Source: Leucothrix arctica (lineage in GTDB: Bacteria > Pseudomonadota > Gammaproteobacteria > Thiotrichales > Thiotrichaceae). Taken from it: a DNA stretch of 64,000 nt. This document shows positions 3,938 through 51,805 of the stretch, in pieces. The notes below the pieces were generated by a model. The model saw nothing but the letters and a program-made list of their open reading frames with translations, did not search any database and was not told the DNA's origin. The DNA is taken from assembly GCF_003172895.1 (NCBI RefSeq), contig NZ_QGKL01000029.1:124001-188000 (forward strand), in the 5' to 3' direction. Both the position numbers and the translations under genes were made by a program. Within the stretch, counting starts at the first letter, position 1, and the number at the start of each line of letters is the position of its first letter.

Positions 3938-4921
3938 TTACTGAGCATTAAACTCATTAACAATGTTGATACCCGTCTGACCAGCTTCTTGTAACCATTC
4001 GGTGACCATAACTTCACCAATCGCACGCATTTCTGTTTGCAACTTTTCAGTTGGCTCAGCAACGGTCATGCCGTTCTTTTTTAAAGTAGCTGTATCTTCA
4101 ACTGCCAGCTGACGACCTAGAGCCCAACCTTTCTTTTCTGCATTAGCAGCAGCAGTCAAAATCACTTGCTGCGTCTCTTTATCAAGACCATCAAAGAAAC
4201 GTTTGTTAACAAATGTCATGTTCTTTGGAATCCAAGCATGAATAGTCGTGAAGTTTGAAATGTAGTCCCAACTCTGACCATTAACACCGGTACTTGGCGA
4301 GGTGATCATTGCGTCAATCGCGTTAGTAGTAAACGCTTGAGCAACGTCACTGAAAGGAATGTTTACAGGGGTTGTATCCATTAAGTCCGCTAGACGCGAA
4401 GTTGTTGGGCTGTATGCACGCATTTTTAAGCCCTTTAAGTCACTTAGACTTGCAACAGACTTTTGCGTGTATAGATCCTGTGCTGGCCAAGGTGCAGCAT
4501 ATAGCAGCATCAACTTATCTTTATCAAGGGCCTTTTCTAGCTCTTTCTTTGAAGCTTTATACAGCTTCTCAGCACCGTCAAAATCAGTCGCTAAGAATGG
4601 GATATTATCTAACTTGAAGATAGGGGCGTTGTTACCCAAACGACCAATAAAGACTTCACCAATTTGAACTTGGCGTGACTTAACAGCACGGTGGATTTCA
4701 GGGTGTTTGATCAGAGAACCACCAGAGTGAACCTTGATGGTCAGCTTGCCATTAGACTTCGCATTAACTTCTTCTGCAAAGCTACGCGCTACTTGAGTGT
4801 GGTGCGTACCATCGCCATAAGGTGTTGGAAAGTCCCAACGATCAGCAGCACTTGCAGTAAATGATGCGACTGTTAACGCAGACACACATAGAGTTACCAA
4901 ACTGCGAGTTAAAAAATTCAT
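3938..4921 (-). CDS. dctP: TRAP transporter periplasmic binding protein (DctP family)
   Basis: About 327 residues from the chosen ATG at 4921, which is preceded by a GGAGGA Shine-Dalgarno and begins a clean signal peptide (MNFLTRSLVTL to SAADRW). An upstream in-frame ATG at 4975 would add 18 non-signal-like residues and is rejected. Family features are FAEEVNAKSNGKL near the N-terminus, DLKGLKMRAY, and the NAIDAMITSPS segment. First gene of the TRAP operon. It lies directly downstream of a sigma-54 promoter and two palindromes, so the neighbouring histidine kinase and response regulator probably control it. The ligand is unproven; dicarboxylate-like acids are a reasonable guess. Confidence 0.92.
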   Translation of the reverse strand: MNFLTRSLVTLCVSALTVASFTASAADRWDFPTPYGDGTHHTQVARSFAEEVNAKSNGKLTIKVHSGGSLIKHPEIHRAVKSRQVQIGEVFIGRLGNNAPIFKLDNIPFLATDFDGAEKLYKASKKELEKALDKDKLMLLYAAPWPAQDLYTQKSVASLSDLKGLKMRAYSPTTSRLADLMDTTPVNIPFSDVAQAFTTNAIDAMITSPSTGVNGQSWDYISNFTTIHAWIPKNMTFVNKRFFDGLDKETQQVILTAAANAEKKGWALGRQLAVEDTATLKKNGMTVAEPTEKLQTEMRAIGEVMVTEWLQEAGQTGINIVNEFNAQ

Positions 4922-4978
4922 GTAAATCCTCCAAAGATTATATTCCGGCAACGAAAACTCATTGCTTAAAAACATAAC

Positions 4979-4994
4979 TGCAAGCGCTGTGCCA
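4979..4994 (-). promoter_or_regulatory. Sigma-54 (-24/-12) promoter of the TRAP operon
   Basis: On the minus strand the sequence reads TGGCAC, five bases, then TTGCA, an exact match to the sigma-54 core with the invariant GG and GC at the right spacing. It is about 58 bases upstream of the dctP ATG. The neighbouring regulator carries a GAFTGA loop, which is the sigma-54 contact of enhancer-binding proteins, so promoter and activator fit each other. Confidence 0.85.
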
Positions 4995-5119: not shown

Positions 5120-6472
5120 CTAAGAAAGATAGTCATTACGATCCAAACCATGCTTCTTCATACGCAGATAAAGCTTCTTTCGGGGAACCCCTAAAGCCTC
5201 AGCGGTTTGTTCTGCATGACCATTATGTTCAGTTAGCGCAGCGTCAATTACTGCTAGCTCGTGCTTATCCATACTCTCTTCAAGGTTACCTGACCCAACA
5301 ACGGGCGCTGAATCTTGCTCAGTGCTCACTGGTAAACCTAAAAACCAACGCTCAGCGACATTGCGAAGCTCGCGTATATTACCAGGCCAACTCTTACCGC
5401 TTAAACGATGCAATAAACTATTGGGAATAGGCTCCGCTTTGCGCCCAGAGCGCTGGCTCGACTGCTCAACGAAGTGCTTAAATAACAAAGGAATATCGTC
5501 TTTTCGCTGTGCCAACGTCGGAATATCCACACTGGCAACATTGATGCGGTAGTAAAGGTCTTCCCTAAACTCACCCTTTTCAGCCGCCTCTCGTAAATTG
5601 ACTTTGCTGGCAGCCAGTACGCGTATATCTACATTCACATCAGTATTGCCACCAAGGCGCTGTAACACGCGCTCTTGTAATACCCTAAGCATTTGAACTT
5701 GTAGTGATGCTGGCATACTTTCTATTTCATCCAAAAATAGTGTGCCACCATTAGCGTATTCGATCTTACCGATGCGTTTTTTCAAGGCGCCAGTAAACGC
5801 GCCACTCTCATGGCCGAACAGTTCACTCTCTATAATCGATTCAGACAGCGCGCCACAGTTGATTGCCACAAAAGGCTTATTCGCACGACTGCTAAAGTCA
5901 TGCAAACACCGAGCAACTACCTCTTTACCCGTGCCTGTTGCTCCGTTGATGATGAGATCAACATCTACCTGCGCCAGTTGTAGCACCATTTCGCGCAGTC
6001 GTTGTAGCTGAGGCGTTTGACCAATCATGCGTGACTCAATCACGTGTTGACCGTCAACGGCTTGACGCAACCTTCGATTTTCCAACACTAGCTGACGCTT
6101 TTTACTCGCCCGTTGAATAGTGTTGATCTGATGCTCTGAGTCATTAGTTTTTTCCAAAAAATCATATGCACCCATACGAATAGCCTGAATCGCAATGGCA
6201 ATATCTGCGTGCCCACTAAACATAATCACGGGAATATCTTGGTCGATGTCTAAAATAGCCTGTAATACATCAATACCGTCCATGATATCCATACGCACAT
6301 CACAAATGATTACGCCCGGCCACGTTACTGAGCATTGAGCAATACCGTCTTTAGGATCTTCATAGGCGCTCGCCTGATAACCCTCTAGCTCTAGTGTTTG
6401 CAGCATCGCATCGCGAACGATTGCTTCATCATCAATAATGATGACCTGATTAAGATTGTCCAGATCGCTCAT
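5120..6472 (-). CDS. Sigma-54-dependent response regulator, DctD-like
   Basis: About 450 residues from the ATG at 6472, chosen for its AGGA Shine-Dalgarno; an upstream in-frame ATG at 6517 is less likely. Domains in order: a receiver (acidic pair near residue 14, phospho-acceptor Asp near 58 in IICDVRM), an AAA+ domain with Walker A GATGTGKE, the GAFTGA sigma-54 loop, Walker B LFLDEIE, and a Fis-type helix-turn-helix at the C-terminus (AEALGVPRKKLYLRMKKHG). It overlaps the end of the kinase gene by 23 bases and converts the kinase signal into transcription of the TRAP operon. The stop is next to the palindromic sites it presumably binds. Confidence 0.93.
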   Translation of the reverse strand: MSDLDNLNQVIIIDDEAIVRDAMLQTLELEGYQASAYEDPKDGIAQCSVTWPGVIICDVRMDIMDGIDVLQAILDIDQDIPVIMFSGHADIAIAIQAIRMGAYDFLEKTNDSEHQINTIQRASKKRQLVLENRRLRQAVDGQHVIESRMIGQTPQLQRLREMVLQLAQVDVDLIINGATGTGKEVVARCLHDFSSRANKPFVAINCGALSESIIESELFGHESGAFTGALKKRIGKIEYANGGTLFLDEIESMPASLQVQMLRVLQERVLQRLGGNTDVNVDIRVLAASKVNLREAAEKGEFREDLYYRINVASVDIPTLAQRKDDIPLLFKHFVEQSSQRSGRKAEPIPNSLLHRLSGKSWPGNIRELRNVAERWFLGLPVSTEQDSAPVVGSGNLEESMDKHELAVIDAALTEHNGHAEQTAEALGVPRKKLYLRMKKHGLDRNDYLS

Positions 6473-8402
6473 GAATTCCTTGTGTGTGTCGAGGTAGCTG
6501 TAAACAGAATGTCGCACCGATTTCCTGCTCGGTATCGATACTTAACTTACCGCCAAAATTTTTCACCAGATTATAAGAAATAGATAAACCTAAACCGAGA
6601 TTTTGGCCACGTTTTTTAGTCGTGAAGAACGTGTCAAACACCTGCCCTCTCAGCTCTTTGGCAATGCCTCTACCATTATCACTTACCTTGATATCCACAA
6701 TATCATCCTGTCGTTCACAGATAATTTGAATACGCTTTTCATCGTTATCAGCCACTGCATCTAAAGCATTAGTTACGAGGTTAACTATGACCTGTTCTAA
6801 CTGAACGGGATCTGCATATACCTGTGTATTAGCAATTGATTTATCAATATCTAAGGTAGTTTCTGCCAGTATTTTATGACCACTTAACATCAACATCGCA
6901 TTATCAACTGCTTGTTTTACTTCGACCACCACCACATTGTCCTGCTGGCCTTTTGCCAATGACTTTAGTTGGGTAATGGTAGAAATAATGCGCTTCGTTA
7001 GCAGCGTAATGTGCGTCAGGTTTTCCTCTGTTTCTTTCAAACGCCCCATCTGAATCAAACGAGAGCTATTGTGGGTGTAATGACGAATCGCCAACAGCGG
7101 CTGATTAATTTCATGAGAAATGCCCGCTGATAGCTGCCCTAATGCGGCCAACTTACCTGACTGTACTAGCTCTTCTTGCAAGGTGCTAAGCTGGTCACGG
7201 AAGCTCATCAATGAGCGCGCCATTGCGCCGATCTCATCATTACCACCAACGGGGACGTCTTGTTCTAAATTTCCTTTCGCAATTGATCTCATCGCAGTAT
7301 TCAGCGTGGTAATACGCCCTACGATATTGTGCCCGATATACAACCACACGATCAGAATCGAAAAGAGCAAGCTGCCACCCACCAAAAATATCGCCCAAAT
7401 ACGACCTTGCTTAATCGTTGCCTGTACGTTTTGAGCAGCTTCTTGTGCTGCTAATTCGGCTTGTCGAGACTGCTTACTGAGTTCGGTATTCAGTGTATTC
7501 AAGTCTCTGCGAATTTTCGCTAATTGTAGCTGACCATCTTCTTTGTTTAAGCGCTCGTCTCGACGTATTGAAAATATATTATTTGAGCCCTGGGCCAATA
7601 ACATCAGATCTGTAATCGACTGTCTGAGTCCCTTATAGCCTGTTAGGCGCTTTAGGCGAGTCAGGTCTTTATTCAAGCTATCAACAACTTCACCCGAGTG
7701 AATACGAGTAGCAATAAAAGAACTCAAGTCAGGTAAATGCTGTACGCGATCAATCAAACTAGCCAGCAAGTTAAAGTCCGCTTTCACGCGATACAACACT
7801 TCTAAGCTGCCATCTAGCAACAGGGGTGGCCGTGGTTGCTTGTTATAATCAAAACGGCTTGGTCGCTTACGCTGTGCGTTCTTAATCAGGCTATCTATAT
7901 CACTGACAAAAGTAGCAGCTTGCCACCGTAGATCCTCACTAAATGCTTGTTTAGCCTTATCTAGATCAAGTTGTTTACTAATGTTTTGGTTAAGCCTTTC
8001 TAGCGGCTCAAGTAAGGTTTTGATATGCGCAGCAATCGCTGCTTGATTTAGATTATCTGGCGTCGTGTCGGAAGCTTGTGGCAGAAGACTCAACATTGCT
8101 TCTACGTTCTGGTTCAGATCACGCCATATTTGTTGCTGTGTTTTTTCATCTTTTGCCGCGAGCAGTGTAGGCGCTCTAACGGTTATGCTGGTGCCATATT
8201 CTTTCAGTTCAGCCATCAGTTGCAACGAGTGCATATTCACCTGAACAACGCGACTTAACTCTTGTTCAATGCGATTGTAAGAGACCCACCCAACATTACT
8301 TGCCAACAGTGTGAATACCGTCAATACCGCAAACGCTAGGAATGAGCGACCACGAATTCCTAACCACTTTGCCTTCGTTATATTTTTATCAGGTAGCATC
8401 AT
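6450..8402 (-). CDS. Membrane sensor histidine kinase, DctB/TorS-like
   Basis: 650 residues. Membrane segments at about 20-40 and 336-357 bracket a long mostly helical periplasmic region of about 295 residues. This looks like a helical-bundle sensor, not the PAS-type sensor of classical DctB. A HAMP linker follows (358-410), then the HisKA dimerisation helix with phospho-acceptor His near 430 (ISHEINQP), and a HATPase domain with N box NLVTNALDA, DNGRGI and GLGLSIS. It is co-translated with the response regulator and presumably senses the TRAP substrate, perhaps through one of the two binding proteins. The periplasmic domain is not assigned to a named family. Confidence 0.9.
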   Translation of the reverse strand: MMLPDKNITKAKWLGIRGRSFLAFAVLTVFTLLASNVGWVSYNRIEQELSRVVQVNMHSLQLMAELKEYGTSITVRAPTLLAAKDEKTQQQIWRDLNQNVEAMLSLLPQASDTTPDNLNQAAIAAHIKTLLEPLERLNQNISKQLDLDKAKQAFSEDLRWQAATFVSDIDSLIKNAQRKRPSRFDYNKQPRPPLLLDGSLEVLYRVKADFNLLASLIDRVQHLPDLSSFIATRIHSGEVVDSLNKDLTRLKRLTGYKGLRQSITDLMLLAQGSNNIFSIRRDERLNKEDGQLQLAKIRRDLNTLNTELSKQSRQAELAAQEAAQNVQATIKQGRIWAIFLVGGSLLFSILIVWLYIGHNIVGRITTLNTAMRSIAKGNLEQDVPVGGNDEIGAMARSLMSFRDQLSTLQEELVQSGKLAALGQLSAGISHEINQPLLAIRHYTHNSSRLIQMGRLKETEENLTHITLLTKRIISTITQLKSLAKGQQDNVVVVEVKQAVDNAMLMLSGHKILAETTLDIDKSIANTQVYADPVQLEQVIVNLVTNALDAVADNDEKRIQIICERQDDIVDIKVSDNGRGIAKELRGQVFDTFFTTKKRGQNLGLGLSISYNLVKNFGGKLSIDTEQEIGATFCLQLPRHTQGIHERSGQS

Positions 8403-15967: not shown

Positions 15968-17206
15968 ATGAATACCCTACTACTCATTTTGATTGGCTTA
16001 GGCTTCCTCAGCATTGTTATCGAAGATCTTACTCATATAAACAAAGCTAAAACCACCCTGTTTTTTGGTAGCCTCGTTTGGCTGCTGTACTTCATTGGTC
16101 AGTCACCGCACACAGAAGAAGTGCATCTCGCGCTCAATGAAAACCTATTGGAAATTGCCACCTTATGGCTATTCCTATTATCTGCCATGACCTTTGTTGC
16201 CTACCTCAACAACCGCAACCTTATCTCCGGCATCGTCCTCAGACTGCTGCCCCAAAAACTGAGCAAACGCACCTTACTATTTATGACAGCCCACTTTGCG
16301 TTTGTGTTCTCATCGTTGGCCGATAACGTCACGAGTACTTTGGTGTGCATGAGTTTGTTGTTGCCACTCAACTTATCGAAGAGTGACTTCCTCCGCTTTG
16401 CTGCGGTGACAGTGTTTGGCGTTAACTCTGGTGGCGTCTCGCTAATCACGGGTGATGTGACGACGCTCATGGTGTTCATGGCAGACAAAGTGACTATCCC
16501 TAACTTGCTACTACTTATCGTACCCGCTTACTTTGGCTTAATAGCCTTAACGCTAGTGTTAGGTTTAAAGCTGGAAGGCGATGTCATCGTTGAACATGAA
16601 AAGAAGAAAATCCCGGGAATAGATCTAATCGCTGGCGGACAGTTTCTCCTAACCATCGTCGCTATTCTTGCCCTAAATATTATGTATGACGTGCCGCCTG
16701 TACTGACATTTTTAGTGTCTTTAGGGCTGCTATTCTTAATCATGCAGTTCCTCAACGGCGATGAAGACATGATGCGCAATGTTCGCATGATCGAGTTCGA
16801 TGCGCTGCTATTCTTCCTAGGTGTATTGCTGATGGTCGGCATGCTGAAGCAGCTTGGCACACTGAGTAACTTAAGTGATTTGTACACGATCATGCCTACT
16901 CCCATCGCAAATTACGTACTAGGCTTACTCTCGTCATTAGTGGATAACGTGCCACTAACAGCGGCCGTCTTACACTCTGAAGTGAGCATGGATGACGGTA
17001 ACTGGTTGAGTCTTGTGTATGCAGTTGGTGTAGGTGGTTCGCTACTGATCATTGGCTCTGCAGCAGGTATCATTGCGATGAGTAAGGCAGGACATGAGTT
17101 GCTAAGCTTCATGAGTTACGCACGTTTTTCAGGTCACTTGCTATTGGCGTATACCATTGGGTTTGCAGCCAGCTGGGGAGTCGGCCACATGTTAGCCTTG
17201 GCTTAG
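15968..17206 (+). CDS. nhaD: NhaD-type sodium/proton antiporter
   Basis: 412 residues with about 12 membrane segments. Landmarks are the SSLADNVTSTLV segment containing an intramembrane Asp-Asn pair, GVNSGGVSLITGDVTTLM, and LSSLVDNVPLTAAV near the C-terminus, the repeated ion-transporter signature of the NhaD family. It exports sodium in exchange for protons at the inner membrane, consistent with a saline habitat. Length is slightly shorter than the roughly 470 residues of Vibrio NhaD. It is separated from the divergent ferredoxin gene by about 246 bases. Confidence 0.9.
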   Translation: MNTLLLILIGLGFLSIVIEDLTHINKAKTTLFFGSLVWLLYFIGQSPHTEEVHLALNENLLEIATLWLFLLSAMTFVAYLNNRNLISGIVLRLLPQKLSKRTLLFMTAHFAFVFSSLADNVTSTLVCMSLLLPLNLSKSDFLRFAAVTVFGVNSGGVSLITGDVTTLMVFMADKVTIPNLLLLIVPAYFGLIALTLVLGLKLEGDVIVEHEKKKIPGIDLIAGGQFLLTIVAILALNIMYDVPPVLTFLVSLGLLFLIMQFLNGDEDMMRNVRMIEFDALLFFLGVLLMVGMLKQLGTLSNLSDLYTIMPTPIANYVLGLLSSLVDNVPLTAAVLHSEVSMDDGNWLSLVYAVGVGGSLLIIGSAAGIIAMSKAGHELLSFMSYARFSGHLLLAYTIGFAASWGVGHMLALA

Positions 17207-44380: not shown

Positions 44381-45265
44381 TTACTTAACAGATACTAATG
44401 CAGGTGATACTTCTTTCTGCTCTGCCATAACTTCCTCAACAGCCTTTTCAACCACAGGCTCTGGCACTGCTTCAGCTTTTTGTCCATGACGCTCATACAA
44501 GAAACTCAACACAGCCTTACGGCAGCGAATGTATTCTGGCGTCTCAGACATCGCCACTCGATCACGAGGGCGCTCAAGATTTACATCTAGAATTTCACCG
44601 ACGGTAGCCGCTGGGCCATTGGTCATCATCACGATACGATCAGACAGTAGTACCGCCTCATCCACGTCATGCGTGATCATAATCACGGTGTTACCCAAGT
44701 CCTTTTGAATCTCCATCAACGAGTCTTGCAAGTGAGCACGTGTTAACGCATCCAATGCACCAAATGGCTCATCTAGAAGCAGTACTTGTGGCTCCATCGC
44801 CAATGCACGAGCGATACCGACACGCTGCTTCATACCGCCTGAAATCTCATCAGGACGTTTGTGCATCGCATGATCCATGTGAACTAGACCGATGTTGTAC
44901 TCAATCCATTCCTTCATTTCAGCTTTTGTCTTCTTGCCTTTGAAAACACGCTTTACTGCTAGCTCAACGTTTTCATAAGCAGACATCCAAGGCAGTAATG
45001 AATGGTTCTGGAATACAACCGCACGCTCTGGACCCGGCTCATTAACTTCTTTACCGTCTAATATAATGCCACCTTCAGTAGCCTGATAAAGGCCAGCAAC
45101 AAGGTTTAGCACGGTTGACTTGCCACAGCCCGAGTGTCCGATAATCGACACAAACTCGCCTTTGGCAATCTTTAAATTTACTTTATCTAGCGCACGATAA
45201 GGGCCCGTTGGTGTTGGGAAATCAATAGACGCTTGCGAAATTACTAAATGTTCTTTAACTGTCAT
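44381..45265 (-). CDS. nrtD: Nitrate/nitrite ABC transporter ATP-binding protein
   Basis: 294 residues. Walker A GHSGCGKST, Q-loop VFQNHSLLPW, signature ISGGMKQRVGIARAL and Walker B LLLDEPFGALD, H-loop ITHDVDEAV. It belongs to the NrtD/SsuB/TauB-like group, and the SGGMKQRVGIARALAMEP stretch is typical for nitrate importers. It lacks the extra binding-protein-like domain of cyanobacterial NrtC. The C-terminal 40 residues are acidic and not conserved. AAGGGAAT precedes the ATG. Last gene of nrtABD. Confidence 0.92.
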   Translation of the reverse strand: MTVKEHLVISQASIDFPTPTGPYRALDKVNLKIAKGEFVSIIGHSGCGKSTVLNLVAGLYQATEGGIILDGKEVNEPGPERAVVFQNHSLLPWMSAYENVELAVKRVFKGKKTKAEMKEWIEYNIGLVHMDHAMHKRPDEISGGMKQRVGIARALAMEPQVLLLDEPFGALDALTRAHLQDSLMEIQKDLGNTVIMITHDVDEAVLLSDRIVMMTNGPAATVGEILDVNLERPRDRVAMSETPEYIRCRKAVLSFLYERHGQKAEAVPEPVVEKAVEEVMAEQKEVSPALVSVK

Positions 45266-45277
45266 TGTCTTATTCCC

Positions 45278-46252
45278 TTAACGTAGTGCTTGTGACTTAT
45301 CCCAAGATGCATACTTCTGAATCACTAGCATGCCTCGGTCTAGTAAGTATCCTAAGATACCGATCACGATAACCGCGACCATAATACGTCCCAGTGAGTT
45401 AGAGCTTCCGTTCTGGAATTCATCCCAAACGAACTTTCCTAAACCTGGGTTCTGCGCCAGCATTTCTGCGGCAATCAGTACCATCCAAGCAATACCAAAC
45501 GACAGACGTAAACCTGTGAATATCATTGGTATAGCTGACGGCAATACAATCTTTACAACATGCGTCCACCAGCTCAGGCGTAGTACCTTACTAACGTTCT
45601 GCAAGTCTTGACTAATATTGGCTACACCGACAACTGTGTTGATAAGCGTTGGCCATAAACAACACAGCATGACGGTGATCGCCGAGGTGACAAATGCCTT
45701 TTCAAACATCGGGTCATCCGACACATAAGTCGCACTCACGATGATGGTTACGATAGGCAACCATGCCAGCGGAGAGACCGGTTTGAAAATCTGTATCAGC
45801 GGGTTAATCGCTGAGTAAACAGTTTGGCTCAGGCCAGCAACGATCCCGATCGGAATGGCGATTAATGAGGCTATGATAAAACCAGTCATCACCGTCAATA
45901 AGCTCGTCCATATCTGATCGAAAAACGTCGCCTTACCCGTGTATGGGCGTATCTTAACAACAGCATTTGGATCTTTCTCTAACTTTGCAGCATTACGTAC
46001 TTCTTGACGCTCTATGAAAGCAACTTCTTTTGCACGTGCTTCTTGGTGTTCATCTACCAATCCCACAAACTGCTGGAACACTTGACTCGGGCCAGGAACA
46101 GCACCGAGAGATGTGACAATCTTGGGAGCACCCACCTGCCATATACCAAGGAAGAGAAAAATTCCAATTAGCGGGATGGCTGCATTTTTAAGTGCTGGTA
46201 AAAACCATTCCATACTAAATGTTTTGCTAGCGTTATCGTTACGCTCAGACAT
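45278..46252 (-). CDS. nrtB: Nitrate/nitrite ABC transporter permease
   Basis: About 324 residues with six membrane segments. The ATG at 46252 fits the AAGG ribosome-binding site better than the ATG two codons earlier. A periplasmic insertion (residues about 55-105) between the first two helices is typical for nitrate-type NrtB. The EAA-like loop is near DLQNVSKVLRLSWWTHVVKIVLP (split). The SFGIAWMVLIAAEML segment is strongly conserved. It pairs with NrtD to import nitrate or nitrite. Confidence 0.92.
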   Translation of the reverse strand: MSERNDNASKTFSMEWFLPALKNAAIPLIGIFLFLGIWQVGAPKIVTSLGAVPGPSQVFQQFVGLVDEHQEARAKEVAFIERQEVRNAAKLEKDPNAVVKIRPYTGKATFFDQIWTSLLTVMTGFIIASLIAIPIGIVAGLSQTVYSAINPLIQIFKPVSPLAWLPIVTIIVSATYVSDDPMFEKAFVTSAITVMLCCLWPTLINTVVGVANISQDLQNVSKVLRLSWWTHVVKIVLPSAIPMIFTGLRLSFGIAWMVLIAAEMLAQNPGLGKFVWDEFQNGSSNSLGRIMVAVIVIGILGYLLDRGMLVIQKYASWDKSQALR

Positions 46253-46294
46253 ATTCATTCACCTTTATTTCTTTTTAAGCCCAGTTAAAAAACC

Positions 46295-47701
46295 TTACAG
46301 CTTGTCTTCGCCTTTCAGACCAATCGGGAAGGATTTTAGGTAGTCGTTTGGCTTTGTTCCGTCAAACGTAATGTTGTCGATAAACTCAGTTTGTGGCTTC
46401 TTAAATCCTGTCTCTGTCGTAAAGTCAGGGAAGTCAGCCGCTTTTAACGTACCCGCATCAATTAGCTCTTTTGCAGCTTTTGCATAGATGTCAGGACGGT
46501 AAACGCTCTTAGCTGTCTCTTCGTACCAAGCATCATCTTTAGCATCAGAGATCTGACCCCAGCGACGCATCTGCGTTAGGTACCAAACAGCGTCTGAGTA
46601 GTAAGGGTATGTTGCGTTGTAACGAAAAAATACGTTGAAGTCAGGGATTTCACGCTTGTCGCCTTTCTCGTATTCAAATGTACCCGTCATAGAGTTAGCA
46701 ATTACTTCCTCATCTGCACCAACGTACTCTGGCTTAGCTAGGATTTTTACTGCTTCTTTACGGTTAGCATTGTCGTTAGCATCCAACCACTCACCTGCAC
46801 GGATAAGTGCTTTAACTAGACGAATAGTCGTATTTGGATACTTGTCAGTGAACTCTTTGTTCAAACCAAATACTTTCTCTGGGTTATCTTTCCAGATCTC
46901 GTAGTCAGTAATAACCGGTACACCGATTCCTTTAAATACAGCCTGTTGGTTCCATGGCTCACCTACGCAATAACCGTGGATCGTTCCTGCTTCCATTGTT
47001 GCTGGCATTTGAGGTGGAGGTGTTACAGAAAGCTGAGCCATCGCGTCAATTTGACCAGATGTGTCGCCTTTGTGTGGTGCATAGTAACCAGGGTGGATAC
47101 CACCGGCTGCTAGCCAGTAACGTAGCTCATAGTTGTGAGTCGATACTGGGAATACCATGCCCATTTTGAAAGGCTTACCTTCGTCGATAAACTCATCAAC
47201 AACTGGCTTGAGGTAGTCAGCTTTAATTGGGTGAACTGGCTTGCCGTCAGCCTGCATTGGTACGTGCTTCTTCATTCGCTCCCAAATATCATTGGAAACC
47301 GTGATGCCGTTACCGTTCAAATCCATTGAAAATGGTGTAACGATGTGAGCTTTTGTACCGTAACCGATCGTTGCAGCAATTGGCTGACCCGCCAACATGT
47401 GTGCACCGTCAAGTTTACCGTCGATAACACCATCAAGTAGAACCTTCCAGTTCGCTTGAGCTTCTAGTGTTACGTAAAGACCTTCGTCTTCGAAAAAGCC
47501 TTTTTCATAAGCAATTGCTAGTGGAGCCATGTCCGTTAGTTTGATGAAACCAAACTTTAACTCTTCTTTTTCTGGCTCGCCTACTTCAGCGTGAACCGAG
47601 CTTGCGCCTAAAATTGAAGCTCCAATCGCTACACTAACTGCTAACGCACTCAAGCTGCGTTTGATAAATGAGCGACGTGCGTTTTGCTGACCTTTCAACA
47701 T
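46295..47701 (-). CDS. nrtA: Nitrate-binding protein of the ABC transporter
   Basis: About 468 residues from the ATG at 47701 (AAAGG upstream; an in-frame GTG at 47710 is too close to it). The N-terminus has a twin-arginine-like RRSFIKR motif before the hydrophobic segment, so Tat export is likely. The body matches NrtA/Cmp[36 protein letters not shown], the [26 protein letters not shown] region and [16 protein letters not shown]. It binds nitrate or nitrite in the periplasm. First gene of nrtABD and directly under the sigma-54/ANTAR leader. Confidence 0.94.
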
Positions 47702-47723: not shown

Positions 47724-47786
47724 CAAAAAACAAAAACGCCCCGTCCTACGCCACCTAGAATTACCTTGTGGTTCAGTACGGGGCGT
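47724..47786 (-). terminator. Leader terminator (attenuator) upstream of nrtA
   Basis: On the minus strand ACGCCCCGT (47778-47786) pairs perfectly with ACGGGGCGT (47736-47744), followed by TTTTTGTTTTTTG. A further CCAC/GTGG pair can close inside the long loop. It ends about 25 bases before the nrtA ATG, and so would stop transcription unless NasT intervenes. Confidence 0.88.
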
Positions 47787-47804
47787 CATTACCCTAAAAT
47801 TGCG

Positions 47805-47855
47805 AACTTCGACATCTTTGCCTGAAGTTATTGCGTTCCATCATCGTTGATGAAC
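47805..47855 (-). promoter_or_regulatory. Two-hairpin ANTAR target RNA (NasT antiterminator site)
   Basis: Reading the minus strand, hairpin 1 (47835-47855) is GUUC-AUC with loop AACGAU closing on GAU-G-GAAC. Hairpin 2 (47805-47829) is AACUUC-A-GGC with loop AAAGAU closing on GUC-GAAGUU. Both loops have six bases with A at position 1 and G at position 4, the known ANTAR RNA signature. They sit between the sigma-54 promoter and the leader terminator. The pair is expected to be bound by phosphorylated or released NasT (51170-51751) to prevent termination. Confidence 0.85.
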
Positions 47856-47869
47856 TGCTGATTAACTTA

Positions 47870-47886
47870 ATGCAAAGGACGTGCCA
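47870..47886 (-). promoter_or_regulatory. Sigma-54 promoter of nrtABD
   Basis: Minus strand TGGCAC, five bases, TTGCAT: an exact -24/-12 match with GG and GC in phase. The predicted start is near 47860, only a few bases before the first ANTAR hairpin. Nitrogen-starvation control by NtrC is the likely logic; no convincing NtrC site was identified by eye. Confidence 0.88.
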
Positions 47887-48037: not shown

Positions 48038-48394
48038 TAGCGATACTTTAAAGTCATCTACCACTATCATCCTGTGATCAACCTTGATCATCTTGGCAAT
48101 ATTGTTGAGATTAAATATAACGCACATATAGCGGAGATTTTTGATCTACCGGAGTCGGTTATGCATGACTACTACGTGGCATATCGTGACCTTATGCAAC
48201 GTTTACAGCTCCCTAAGTACCAGATTCAAATCGAGTTAGTTGAAGGTATGATGGCGGTGTTTGATAACCGTCGAATGCTGCATGGACGTCAGTCTTATGA
48301 AGCGACGGGTAAGCGCCATTTGCGGGGTTGTTATGTTGACCGTACTGAGTTTAAGAGTCGGCTGCGCGTGCTGGCGAAGCGTTACACGTCGTAA
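48038..48394 (+). pseudogene. C-terminal fragment of a gamma-butyrobetaine/TauD-type dioxygenase
   Basis: About 105 readable residues starting after a TAG at 48038. They match the last quarter of gamma-butyrobetaine hydroxylase-like 2-oxoglutarate/iron dioxygenases: VINLDHLGN, EGMMAVFDNRRMLHGRQSY, and GKRHLRGCYVDRTEFKSRLRVL. These include the distal iron-ligand His and the 2-oxoglutarate-binding Arg region. The N-terminal catalytic part with the HxD pair is absent upstream. It is a truncated remnant, lying between nrtA and an aminotransferase gene. Translation from the GTG at 48074 is possible but would not give an active enzyme. Confidence 0.75.
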
Positions 48395-48503: not shown

Positions 48504-49838
48504 TTAGCTAGCGTTCTTAGTAACAATCGCTTCAGCCAAGGCTTTGTCAGCGGTGTCTTCCAACCACGCTAAGTCTACATGTCTATGTGACTCACAGATA
48601 AACCAAGGCTCACGCGAATCAGGTTCCAGCATGATGCCGTACTTGATCAGGTTCATCGCAAACTCTGTGTAAAGCTCACTGTCCGTCGCCTTCCAGTCAC
48701 GGTAGTTAGTCGGTACAACGTCACCAAAGTGGATACCAAACATAGAGTCTGGTCCTGCGAATTTATGGGTAATGCCATGCTTTGTGAATACACGACTCAA
48801 CACTTGCTGAATGTCAGCGCCTGCTTTGTTGATGGTGTCAAGTGCATCTGTTTCATTAAGCACGGTTAGCGTCGCTTTTGCTGCACTAAGTGCGACCATA
48901 TTGGCAGTATACGTTCCGCCATGAGTCACACCTTTCACACCAAAGCTAATCACATCCATCACATCTGCACGTCCACCAAAAGCAGCTACTGGGTAACCAT
49001 TACCCATCGCTTTTGCATAAGTCGTTAGATCAGCATGAATACCATACAGTGCCTGTGCGCCACCCTTGCCAACACGGAAGCCCGTTTTCACTTCATCCAT
49101 AATCAACAAAGTACCGTTCGCGTTACACATGTCGCGTAATTTTTGTAGGTACTCTTGTGAAGACGCGATGCTACCGCAGTTACCTAAAATAGGCTCAATC
49201 ACGATCGCGGCAATGTCATTTCCAACACGCGCGAATACTTCATCTATCGCTTCAAAGCTATTCAAAGGAACAGTCTCTAAATGCTCACGGCTAGCTTCTG
49301 GTATACCGACACCAAATGATGCAATTTCAGGGGCTTTACCCGACTTGTTGTCCCAGTTATCAACATCGGACTTCCACATCATTTCGTCATACAAGCCATG
49401 GAAACCGCCTTCTACAACCACAATTTTGTTACGGCCAGTAAAACCACGCGCTGTACGCACTGCACCTAGAACGGCCTCAGTACCTGAGTTTGCAAAGCGG
49501 AGTTTTTCGATGTTTGGACACATCTCTTTTATCAACTCGACAACTTCAGAGTCAAGGTCTGTGGAAAATCCTGAGATGGTACCGCGAGTCGTAATCGCTT
49601 CGACGACTGCTTGGTCAATACGCGTATCACGGTAACCCAAAATGATTGGGCCATAAGCCAAACGGAAGTCTACAAACGTTTGGTCATCTGCATCAGTAAT
49701 GGTGCAACCTTCGCTGGACTTAACAAATACGGTGTTGTCTTCACCCCAGTAACGATAGCTGTCAGCAACACCCATAGGCATATTAGTATGGGATTGCTTA
49801 AGTAGGCGTTCGGTATTTGGCTTAGATGGGTTACTCAT
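48504..49838 (-). CDS. Class III PLP-dependent aminotransferase, glutamate-1-semialdehyde mutase-like
   Basis: 444 residues. Class III features: GYRDTRIDQAV, FANSGTEAVLGAVRTAR, EGGFHGLYD, DEVKTGFRVG (Asp that contacts the PLP ring nitrogen), YAKAMGNGYPVAAFGG with the PLP Lys, and GGTYTANMVALSAA. It is close to HemL-type aminomutases, yet differs in many positions, so the true HemL is probably elsewhere. It lies between the nasTS genes and nrtABD, on the same strand; it may be part of the nitrogen-controlled transcript. The substrate is unknown. Confidence 0.85.
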   Translation of the reverse strand: MSNPSKPNTERLLKQSHTNMPMGVADSYRYWGEDNTVFVKSSEGCTITDADDQTFVDFRLAYGPIILGYRDTRIDQAVVEAITTRGTISGFSTDLDSEVVELIKEMCPNIEKLRFANSGTEAVLGAVRTARGFTGRNKIVVVEGGFHGLYDEMMWKSDVDNWDNKSGKAPEIASFGVGIPEASREHLETVPLNSFEAIDEVFARVGNDIAAIVIEPILGNCGSIASSQEYLQKLRDMCNANGTLLIMDEVKTGFRVGKGGAQALYGIHADLTTYAKAMGNGYPVAAFGGRADVMDVISFGVKGVTHGGTYTANMVALSAAKATLTVLNETDALDTINKAGADIQQVLSRVFTKHGITHKFAGPDSMFGIHFGDVVPTNYRDWKATDSELYTEFAMNLIKYGIMLEPDSREPWFICESHRHVDLAWLEDTADKALAEAIVTKNAS

Positions 49839-49949: not shown

Positions 49950-51170
49950 TTAAGGGTTAAGCTGACTCACCTGCCCCGACAAACGCGCCAATGTGATCTG
50001 TGAACTCCCCATCGCAATAGGCTTACTGGCTCGTTTCAACACCCAAGCAGATTGATTAACTGTTTCTGCTTTATGGTTATCCAATGGGTAAGGCAATCCG
50101 AGCTTTTCAGCAACATCTCGATAAACGTCAAGTTTATACACTGAGTCTAAAACAGCTTGTTGATCCACTGACTTTTTCAACTGGCCACCCTGTGACATCT
50201 GCTGTAAAAAGAAAGCACCATGTGAGTGCCAAGGAATCGTCGCTCCGTGACGGTAGAAGCAATTAAAGTCAGGCAAAGTACGCGCTGGTTCATCGAGTGA
50301 GAACTGATATTGCCCCATCAGTGGCCCTCTAATCTGCTCAAGCGGCACATTAAGATAGTCTTCACGCGACATCCATTCAGCGGTTTGCGAACGACCATGA
50401 GGATGATCTAACCATTGTGCAGCTTCCAGTAAAGCAGCCACGATCGCACGATGCGTTTGTGGATTCTGTGCTGCCCATTTCTGAGTCACACCGAGTACTT
50501 TACCAGGGCCATTATTCCAAATTTCGTAACTGGTAATCGCAACACTGCCGATGCCTTGTTGAACTGCGACTTGATTCCACGGCTCACCTGAACTGTAACC
50601 GTCAATTTCGCCACTCGCTAATTGTGCAACCATCTGCGGAGGTGGAATCACTTTCAGTTCAACATCATTTACAGGATCAATACCTGCGTCTTCTAACCAT
50701 GCATTAAGCAGGTAATGATGTTGTGAATACGGAAATACATGCGCAAATACGAGTTTGCGATCAGGCTTAGCGTCAATGAGCTTTTTAAGGGCCGTCGCTT
50801 TTAGTGGTGTTGACTCGAAACAGTCAGAACAAATTGTTTTCAACTCATCCATTAACGTATTAGATAAGGTAATGGCCGAACCATTTAACCCCATACTAAA
50901 AGCACTTTGCATTGGTATGCCAAGCCCATCAATACCCAGTGTCGCAGCCAGTGGCATAGGTGCAAGCATGTGTGCCGCATCTAAACTACCAAATGCCACA
51001 CGATCGCGAATATTTGCCCACGAGACTTCACGCTCTAAACTTACTTCTAAGCCGTACTTTTCAAACAAGCCACGCTCTTGCGCTGCTACTAACACGGCAC
51101 AGTCAGTTAACGGTAAGAAGCCAATTTTGAGTTCGGTTTTTTCGGGTCTGAAAAGTGGTGCCGCATTCAT
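49950..51170 (-). CDS. nasS: NasS nitrate sensor (NrtA-like, cytosolic)
   Basis: 406 residues without any signal peptide. The body is the NrtA/CmpA binding fold (LKIGFLPLTDCAVLVAAQERG, HMLAPMPLAATLG, VIPPPQMVAQLASGEIDGYSSGEPWNQ in parts, and FNCFYRHGATIPWHSHG). Lack of a signal peptide plus its pairing with an ANTAR gene marks it as NasS. NasS binds NasT without nitrate and releases it when nitrate or nitrite is present. The ATG overlaps the nasT stop (TAATG). Confidence 0.92.
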   Translation of the reverse strand: MNAAPLFRPEKTELKIGFLPLTDCAVLVAAQERGLFEKYGLEVSLEREVSWANIRDRVAFGSLDAAHMLAPMPLAATLGIDGLGIPMQSAFSMGLNGSAITLSNTLMDELKTICSDCFESTPLKATALKKLIDAKPDRKLVFAHVFPYSQHHYLLNAWLEDAGIDPVNDVELKVIPPPQMVAQLASGEIDGYSSGEPWNQVAVQQGIGSVAITSYEIWNNGPGKVLGVTQKWAAQNPQTHRAIVAALLEAAQWLDHPHGRSQTAEWMSREDYLNVPLEQIRGPLMGQYQFSLDEPARTLPDFNCFYRHGATIPWHSHGAFFLQQMSQGGQLKKSVDQQAVLDSVYKLDVYRDVAEKLGLPYPLDNHKAETVNQSAWVLKRASKPIAMGSSQITLARLSGQVSQLNP

Positions 51171-51751
51171 TATGCGTCACCGAGTAATGACATCGCCGCA
51201 ACAAAATTGCGAGATGCATCACCTATTTTCATGTTTCTATCCATCGCCATTTTGCGGAGCAACTGATAAGCCTCTTCTTCACTCAGGTTGCGGTGCTGCA
51301 TCAGAATACCTTTTGCTTTATCCACATCCTTACGGTCTTGAAGACGTAGCTTAGTGTCTTCAAGTTCGATCTTTAACTTCTGAAAGGCTTTAAAATTGGC
51401 AATCGCCACATCCATAATCGAACTCAGACGACTAGCGGATAAGCCATCAACAATGTAAGCGCTAACGCCCGCATTGATGGCTGCTTCCGTCGTTTCATGA
51501 TCACTGTGTTGAGCAAAGAAAACAACGGGCTTAGGTGTTTCGCGGTTAACCGTGCGCAAAGACTCAAGCGTGTCACGATCAGGACTCGCCATCTCGATAA
51601 TAATCACGTCGGGCGCATGCTGTCGCACTTGCCCCATAAGGTCTTTACTACTATCAACGCAGATAACATCGGTCGCATCCATTGCGCTTAACTCATCTTT
51701 CAAGCTATTTGATCGTTCTGCGTTGCCGTCAACCAGCATTACTTTAAACAT
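51170..51751 (-). CDS. nasT: NasT nitrate antiterminator, receiver-ANTAR protein
   Basis: About 193 residues from the ATG at 51751, supported by AAGGCGG; a GTG six codons upstream is possible. The N-terminal half is a receiver-like domain (KVMLVDGNAERSNSLKDEL) that lacks the acidic pair of true receivers; PDVIIIEMASPDRDT has Glu where the acceptor Asp is expected. The C-terminal ANTAR domain has VDKAKGILMQHRNLSEEEAYQLLRKMAM (split), the three-helix RNA-binding bundle. It prevents termination at the nrtA leader when released by NasS. Confidence 0.92.
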   Translation of the reverse strand: MFKVMLVDGNAERSNSLKDELSAMDATDVICVDSSKDLMGQVRQHAPDVIIIEMASPDRDTLESLRTVNRETPKPVVFFAQHSDHETTEAAINAGVSAYIVDGLSASRLSSIMDVAIANFKAFQKLKIELEDTKLRLQDRKDVDKAKGILMQHRNLSEEEAYQLLRKMAMDRNMKIGDASRNFVAAMSLLGDA

Positions 51752-51788
51752 GTACTCAGCCGCCTTCACTAGGTTTACATAATTATAT

Positions 51789-51805
51789 AAGCAACCTTTA
51801 TGCCA
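51789..51805 (-). promoter_or_regulatory. Sigma-54-like promoter of nasTS
   Basis: Minus strand TGGCAT, five bases, TTGCTT, with GG and GC correctly spaced, about 40-50 bases before the nasT start. One base differs from the TGGCAC consensus. Confidence 0.65.

Follow-up and report, generated by a model that had tools for sequence, protein, structure and literature searches.

In the 64,000-nt stretch of Leucothrix arctica DNA analyzed here (GCF_003172895.1, contig NZ_QGKL01000029.1, positions 124,001-188,000, forward strand; hereafter the window), the nrtABC operon is preceded by a leader that very probably functions as a NasT-controlled antitermination element behind a sigma-54 promoter. Its anatomy, its conservation and covariation in related bacteria, and its co-occurrence with NasT were directly established. 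The leader carries three hairpins with A1/G4 hexaloops (A at loop position 1, G at position 4), designated P1, Pm and P2 in the order of transcription. Because two-layer control, with initiation by sigma-54/NtrC and elongation by NasT/NasS, is established for NalA, the Pseudomonas nirBD leader (PMC12830290), the central reading stands without being novel, and what is new is the conserved third hairpin. We found no description of a third hairpin in the literature searched, a negative that is weak for NalA.

Promoter, hairpins and terminator upstream of nrtA

All leader elements before nrtA lie on the minus strand of the window (Table 1). A preceding sequence-only reading had described a sigma-54 box, two hairpins with loops AACGAU and AAAGAU, a nine-base-pair GC-rich terminator stem, and nasT and nasS genes a few kilobases away. 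The box and both hairpins are present, the latter both of the A1/G4 type, and nasT and nasS are located 2-4 kb upstream of nrtA on the same strand. The terminator and its T-run were also recovered, but the stem consists of 10 pairs, rather than nine, enclosing a 33-base, partly paired cap. P2 was absent from the earlier anatomy, in which the AAAGAU hairpin corresponds to the middle one of the three.

Table 1. Coordinates of the features discussed, numbered by position in the window
Feature	Position	Strand	Characteristics and evidence
Sigma-54 promoter (-24/-12)	47870..47886	-	TGGCAC-N5-TTGCAT; sequence, exact-pattern count, relatives, rpoN
Hairpin P1	47835..47855	-	Loop AACGAU (A1, G4), transcript 5' end; sequence, helix covaries in relatives
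Middle hairpin Pm	47806..47828	-	Loop AAAGAU (A1, G4), C-G closing pair; sequence, covariation, unselected loop counts
Hairpin P2 (candidate antiterminator)	47781..47794	-	GGGU-AAUGAC-GCCC, loop A1/G4; sequence, same place in relatives
Intrinsic terminator	47731..47787	-	Arms 47787-47778 and 47744-47735, then T-run; folding energies
Controlled operon nrtABC	44381..47701	-	ORFs, Pfam, NCBIfam
nrtA	47701-46295	-	ATG at 47701
nrtB permease	46258-45278	-	ORFs, Pfam, NCBIfam
nrtC-like ATPase	45265-44381	-	ORFs, Pfam, NCBIfam
nasS	49950..51170	-	NMT1_2-family putative nitrate sensor, NasT partner; domain search
nasT	51170..51769	-	Receiver-like and ANTAR domain; domain search
Sigma-54-like box before nasT	51790..51805	-	TGGCATAAAGGTTGCT; pattern match, kept in close relatives

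From the position of the sigma-54 box, transcription is predicted to start near 47860. Two exact matches to TGGCACN5TTGCW are present in the window, versus 0.05 expected from base composition. With one mismatch allowed, the four occurrences in the window are no rarer than chance (3.67 expected), and support for the box thus comes from its position and its conservation, including a box at the equivalent position in two same-genus relatives (L010 and L011). The other exact box of the window (4979-4994) immediately precedes a gene for a TRAP-type solute-binding protein (3938-4975, minus strand); the neighboring genes, as judged from their translations, encode a regulator of the NtrC family (5120-6517) and a sensor kinase (6450-8402). 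Between nasS and nrtA are an aminotransferase gene (48504-49838, minus strand) and, on the plus strand, a fragment encoding the C terminus of a TauD/TmpA-type dioxygenase (48074-48394). In the two same-genus genomes carrying the cluster, just ~475 nt separate the nasS match from the nrtA match, so the segment 48074-49838 looks like an insertion.

The fold of the 136-nt leader is better than that of 200 of 200 dinucleotide shuffles (z -3.7). The P1 stem is weak and bulged (-3.4 kcal/mol), and linkers of 6 nt and 11 nt separate P1 from Pm and Pm from P2, respectively. The loop end and 3' strand of P2 are the first bases of the terminator 5' arm, and the two structures are therefore mutually exclusive. 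Predicted energies are about -28 kcal/mol for the terminator versus about -4 kcal/mol for P2; in the predicted minimum-energy fold all three hairpins are present when the transcript reaches the end of P2, and P2 is gone once the terminator is out. Under the scan criteria used, this is the sole site on either strand of the window where an A1/G4 hexaloop overlaps a terminator arm.

In the ANTAR mechanism as reported for EutV, the second hairpin is mutually exclusive with the terminator, and linkers of 5-12 nt work while those of 3 or 14 nt fail. Both linkers of the window leader fall within this range. Two adjacent A1/G4 hexaloop hairpins, which define the dual-hexaloop motif, are provided by Pm and P2 (P1 is also A1/G4), and the overlap with the terminator belongs to P2 and not to the P1 and Pm combination that the sequence-only reading had taken as the working switch. 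Since the second ANTAR hairpin must exclude the terminator and neither P1 nor Pm touches it, these two cannot work alone, and we rejected them as the full switch. By analogy with EutV, Pm and P2 would be the classical ANTAR pair, with P1 as an extra hairpin 6 nt before Pm. The number of hairpins exceeds that of the dual-hexaloop motif by one that covaries in relatives; we regard the leader as a variant within the class, since the published "dual" definition does not strictly forbid more.

Conservation of the leader and its association with NasT

Relatives were drawn from 115 related genomes and 80 named loci, the latter being the best 80 of at least 583 relatives. In total, 107 regions upstream of nrtA were taken at an NrtA identity of at least 60%, 98 of which were kept after dereplication. 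A terminator was found in 83 of the 107, and in 77 an A1/G4 hexaloop overlaps its 5' arm. With loop letters unselected, the overlapping hexaloop is A1/G4 in 69 of the 75 dereplicated terminator-bearing leaders, and every other letter pair occurs at most twice. Slightly different terminator rules gave either 69 or 70 dereplicated nrtA leaders with P2; L011 was counted as P2-bearing by eye (the scan chose another helix), and L013 (loop GAAGCU, with G1) as P2-lacking. At L021, L025, L026, L062, L081, L087, L104 and L110 a sigma-54 box lies 34-88 nt before the matched nrtA start and no leader was found; the contig of L025 (genome G053) also carries a NasT-like gene, with 30% identity.

Among the 70 P2-bearing nrtA leaders, 14 contain one or more additional A1/G4 hairpins located after the 5'-most one and before P2. 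A single upstream A1/G4 hairpin was seen in 30, and the other 26 showed none at the energy cut applied. An A1/G4 middle hairpin was observed in 14 of the 32 nrtA leaders with linkers of at least 18 nt (0.69 expected from shuffles) and in 7 of 10 nirB leaders (0.12 expected). When the best hexaloop 16-32 nt before P2 was taken with its loop unselected, which was possible in 36 of 70 nrtA and 10 of 11 nirB leaders, 38 of these 46 had G4, 32 had A1 and 38 were closed by a C-G pair. The resulting consensus (C-G, A1, G4) is the one reported from in vitro SELEX with NasR. The middle loop is variable at positions 2, 3, 5 and 6, and in some lineages its first base is G. In the three-hairpin leaders the 5'-most loop is the best conserved, with A2 in 29 of 29, C3 in 21, G5 in 22 and C6 in 25; A1 and G4 of this loop were selection criteria, and the middle loops in the same set were pre-filtered for A or G at position 1 and G at position 4. 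The spacing between Pm and P2 is tighter in the relatives than that between P1 and Pm.

Counted from the start of the sigma-54 box, the 5'-most A1/G4 loop lies 35-45 bases downstream in 18 of 27 nrtA spacings (54-72 bases in the rest) and 43-48 bases downstream in 10 of 11 nirB leaders. This places the 5'-most hairpin at the start of the transcript, which suggests, but does not show, that NasT loads early on the leader transcript. Two nrtA leaders of Candidatus Thiodiazotropha (L042 and L054) have four A1/G4 hexaloop hairpins each, and in L042 two of them seem, by eye, to stand side by side within a larger stem. In one related genus (L023, L024, L027 and L032-L034), the linker and terminator loop of the nrtA leaders contain repeated CTCCTCC tracts that resemble anti-Shine-Dalgarno sequences and could act as a trans RNA; the window leader is without them.

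A covariance model, R1, was built from a MAFFT alignment of 17 leaders (8 nrtA and 9 nirB) from which the sequences of this genome were left out. The P1/Pm/P2 structure is paired in 95.2% of the alignment cells, compared with 84.2% after shuffling and no more than 50% when the structure is slid along the alignment. Changes on both sides of a pair were found in 35 cells (10.1 in shuffles), and the covariation score of 0.416 (0.197 in shuffles) was reached by none of 500 shuffles. The P1 and Pm helices both covary. The sequence of P2 is the most constant part of the alignment, and because it is invariant among the 17 leaders it is uninformative on covariation either way. In the window, R1 finds the nrtA leader at E 6.4e-8; a weak match at 16745-16806 (13.9 bits) was taken as chance. 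Over the whole genome only two strong sites were found, before nirB (57.3 bits) and before nrtA (37.4 bits), the next match scoring 15.9 bits (E 1.2). R1 is a family-level model that misses most distant leaders, and on 41 chosen loci it matches nine at E 0.1.

The presence of the leader follows that of NasT. An nrtA leader was found in 19 of 22 NasT-positive genomes versus one of five NasT-negative genomes, the exception (G058, leader L019) being an 85% complete assembly. For nirB, 49 upstream regions from 47 genomes were analyzed, out of 60 matches in 58 genomes; L180 and L202, which were not placed, and nine further matches are left out of this set. A nirB leader was found in 17 of 31 NasT-positive and in none of 16 NasT-negative genomes, and within the window's own family in 16 of 20 versus none of 13 (p 5e-6, an indicative value as the genomes are not independent). 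No leader was found at the examined nirB gene in 14 of the 31 NasT-positive genomes; these genes are possibly operon-internal, and the upstream region of one of them (L206) appeared by eye to be coding. A sigma-54 box is kept near 15 of the 16 nirB genes of NasT-negative genomes, where 0.3 would be expected by chance. Based on the presence counts for nirB and nrtA, the promoter layer thus stands without the NasT layer, while the leader tracks NasT.

The predicted NasT regulon and related RNA families

NasT is the sole ANTAR protein of the genome, and the NasS-like protein is ~40% identical to the NrtA query. In the receiver-like domain of NasT (51170-51769), IIIEMASP was read by eye where the phospho-acceptor Asp is expected, which would be compatible with NasT being controlled through NasS instead of phosphorylation. 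The sigma-54-like box before nasT is found at -36 in all three closely aligning loci of the genus (L119-L121, from this and two same-genus genomes), and a strict sigma-54 box precedes nasT in 10 of 30 nasT loci; sigma-54 promoters ahead of nasT-type genes have been predicted earlier (PMC12316311). Both rpoN and ntrC were found in the genome. A search for NtrC sites by a pattern with up to three mismatches gave 20 matches versus 26.6 expected from shuffles.

The second strong R1 site belongs to the nirB-nirD-nasA operon (C8). Its leader begins with TGGCAC-N5-TTGCT, followed by a hairpin with the loop AACGGC, a middle hairpin with the loop GUCGCU (G at position 1), and GGGU-AAAGAA-GCCC overlapping its terminator. 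As judged from the leaders, nrtABC and nirBD-nasA define a predicted two-operon NasT regulon in this genome.

Rfam gave no match at gathering score in the whole window, so that the ANTAR-model hit anticipated by the sequence-only reading did not appear; the best sub-threshold match of the nrtA leader is the narK RNA (RF03032), at 28.3 bits against a gathering score of 43.2. Against P11 (RF00625) the leader scores 18.7 bits, below the gathering score of 70. A second RF03032 candidate elsewhere in the genome (C12, E 0.12) was dropped because the family-specific model did not recover it. The RF03032 model opens with GGCAC..UUGC, which is sigma-54-like, and continues with NasT-type hairpins; its first positions look like promoter DNA and not transcribed RNA. 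One genome (G223) has RF03032 and RF00625 both over cut-off, 3.6 kb apart, in the order nasS, nasT, narK RNA, MFS gene, kinase gene, P11 and nirB. Besides its sigma-54 box, the P11 copy contains three hairpins of the A1/G4 hexaloop type, while the narK RNA copy, a full-length match to the model, has two. The three-hairpin form is therefore not confined to this genus. Taken together, this suggests that the narK RNA and P11 families are one kind of element with promoter DNA inside the models.

The P11 RNA, which we take to be the same RNA as NalA, as fits its position before nirB, resembles the window leader in its sigma-54 promoter, NasT/NasS and leader terminator, with NtrC involvement presumed here. 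The RF00625 copy that scores over cut-off, L236, likewise shows three A1/G4 hexaloops (AACGUG, ACAGAG and AAAGGC). The window leader differs in its low P11 score and in preceding nrtABC, not nirBD. By its anatomy and the sequence features examined, which include a sigma-54 box before the leader and both NasT and NasS in the genome, it is a putative member of the NalA-type kind. It shares with the narK RNA the sigma-54-like start and the NasT-type hairpins, although it remains below the gathering score and has three hexaloop hairpins where the narK copy over cut-off, situated after nasS-nasT and before the MFS gene, has two. The eutP leader of Enterococcus faecalis, controlled by EutV, is similar in its A1/G4 hexaloops, a second hairpin overlapping the terminator and a linker of 5-12 nt, but it responds to another signal through another partner and has two hairpins. 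The nasF leader of Klebsiella oxytoca is likewise an element of nitrate antitermination, with a C-G closing pair, A1 and G4; its motif is two-hairpin and NasR, unlike NasT, senses nitrate itself.

Probable antitermination and a possible role of the third hairpin

In the Paracoccus leader, mutation of hairpin HI severely lowers expression and mutation of HII hardly does (PMC5424462). Nitrate is reported there to release NasT from NasS, and NasT binds the nasA leader (PMC3795266). For the window leader we infer that NasT binds it, that transcription terminates within it, that NtrC activates its promoter, and in which sequence these steps occur. Under nitrogen scarcity, sigma-54 polymerase, presumably activated by NtrC, would initiate near 47860, and P1 and Pm would fold on leaving the polymerase. 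Without nitrate, NasS would hold NasT, the emerging P2 would be taken into the stronger terminator, and transcription would stop before nrtA. With nitrate, NasS would free NasT, which would load on P1/Pm and then hold P2, so that the terminator could not form and nrtABC would be read. P1 would serve as an extra upstream NasT hairpin beside the Pm and P2 pair, and nirBD-nasA would be under the same NasT through its similar leader. The two-layer logic proposed in the sequence-only reading is well supported by comparison as a probable scheme, whereas the hairpin pair assigned to it would not work alone.

We tentatively suggest a three-hairpin relay in the NasT leaders of many gammaproteobacteria, in which a NasT dimer would be caught on P1 once the polymerase clears the sigma-54 promoter, then move to Pm and on to P2 as these emerge, outpacing the terminator. 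The authors of the RNA-bound EutV structure (PMC8934654) proposed that the two hexaloops of an RNA cannot be occupied by the same dimer, which would instead be captured by a recruitment hairpin and passed on to the antiterminator hairpin. Such a hand-over would accommodate a third hairpin in series, which would be odd for a dimer bridging two, and an odd number of equal-type, C-G-closed hairpins fits one dimer per hairpin better than pair-bridging. It is also possible, though we would not favor it, that the leader is an ordinary two-hairpin ANTAR switch in which Pm and P2 suffice and P1 is a leftover, or a 5' stability hairpin unused by NasT. Two hairpins are reported to be enough in eutP, most P2-bearing nrtA leaders have one or no A1/G4 hairpin upstream (30 and 26 of the 70), and the Pm-P2 spacing is the tighter. 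Against this, the 5'-most loop is the best conserved in three-hairpin leaders, and its helix covaries.

Besides its cis function, the terminated leader might have a trans-acting one, either as a small RNA or by sponging NasT; P11, the counterpart in Pseudomonas, is catalogued by Rfam as an sRNA gene, and the EutX RNA, which has an extra single hexaloop, sequesters EutV (PMC8934654), but for the window leader we consider such a role unlikely. It is very improbable that P1 and Pm form the NasT site and block termination from a distance with P2 unused: their 6-nt linker falls in the EutV working range, but neither hairpin overlaps the terminator, and P2 is the most constant in alignment and A1/G4 in nearly all terminator-bearing leaders. 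Least credible, and strongly disfavored by the covariance matches, the covariation, the shared occurrence with NasT and the presence of a sigma-54 box immediately ahead of the hairpins, is that a terminator lying after other same-strand genes merely ends upstream transcription, with the hairpins there by chance.

The EutV structural study raises the question of whether an ANTAR dimer spans two hairpins or moves from the recruitment to the antiterminator hairpin (PMC8934654). Three-hairpin leaders occurring beside two-hairpin ones make this question testable, and the NasT-negative genomes show the promoter layer without the leader.
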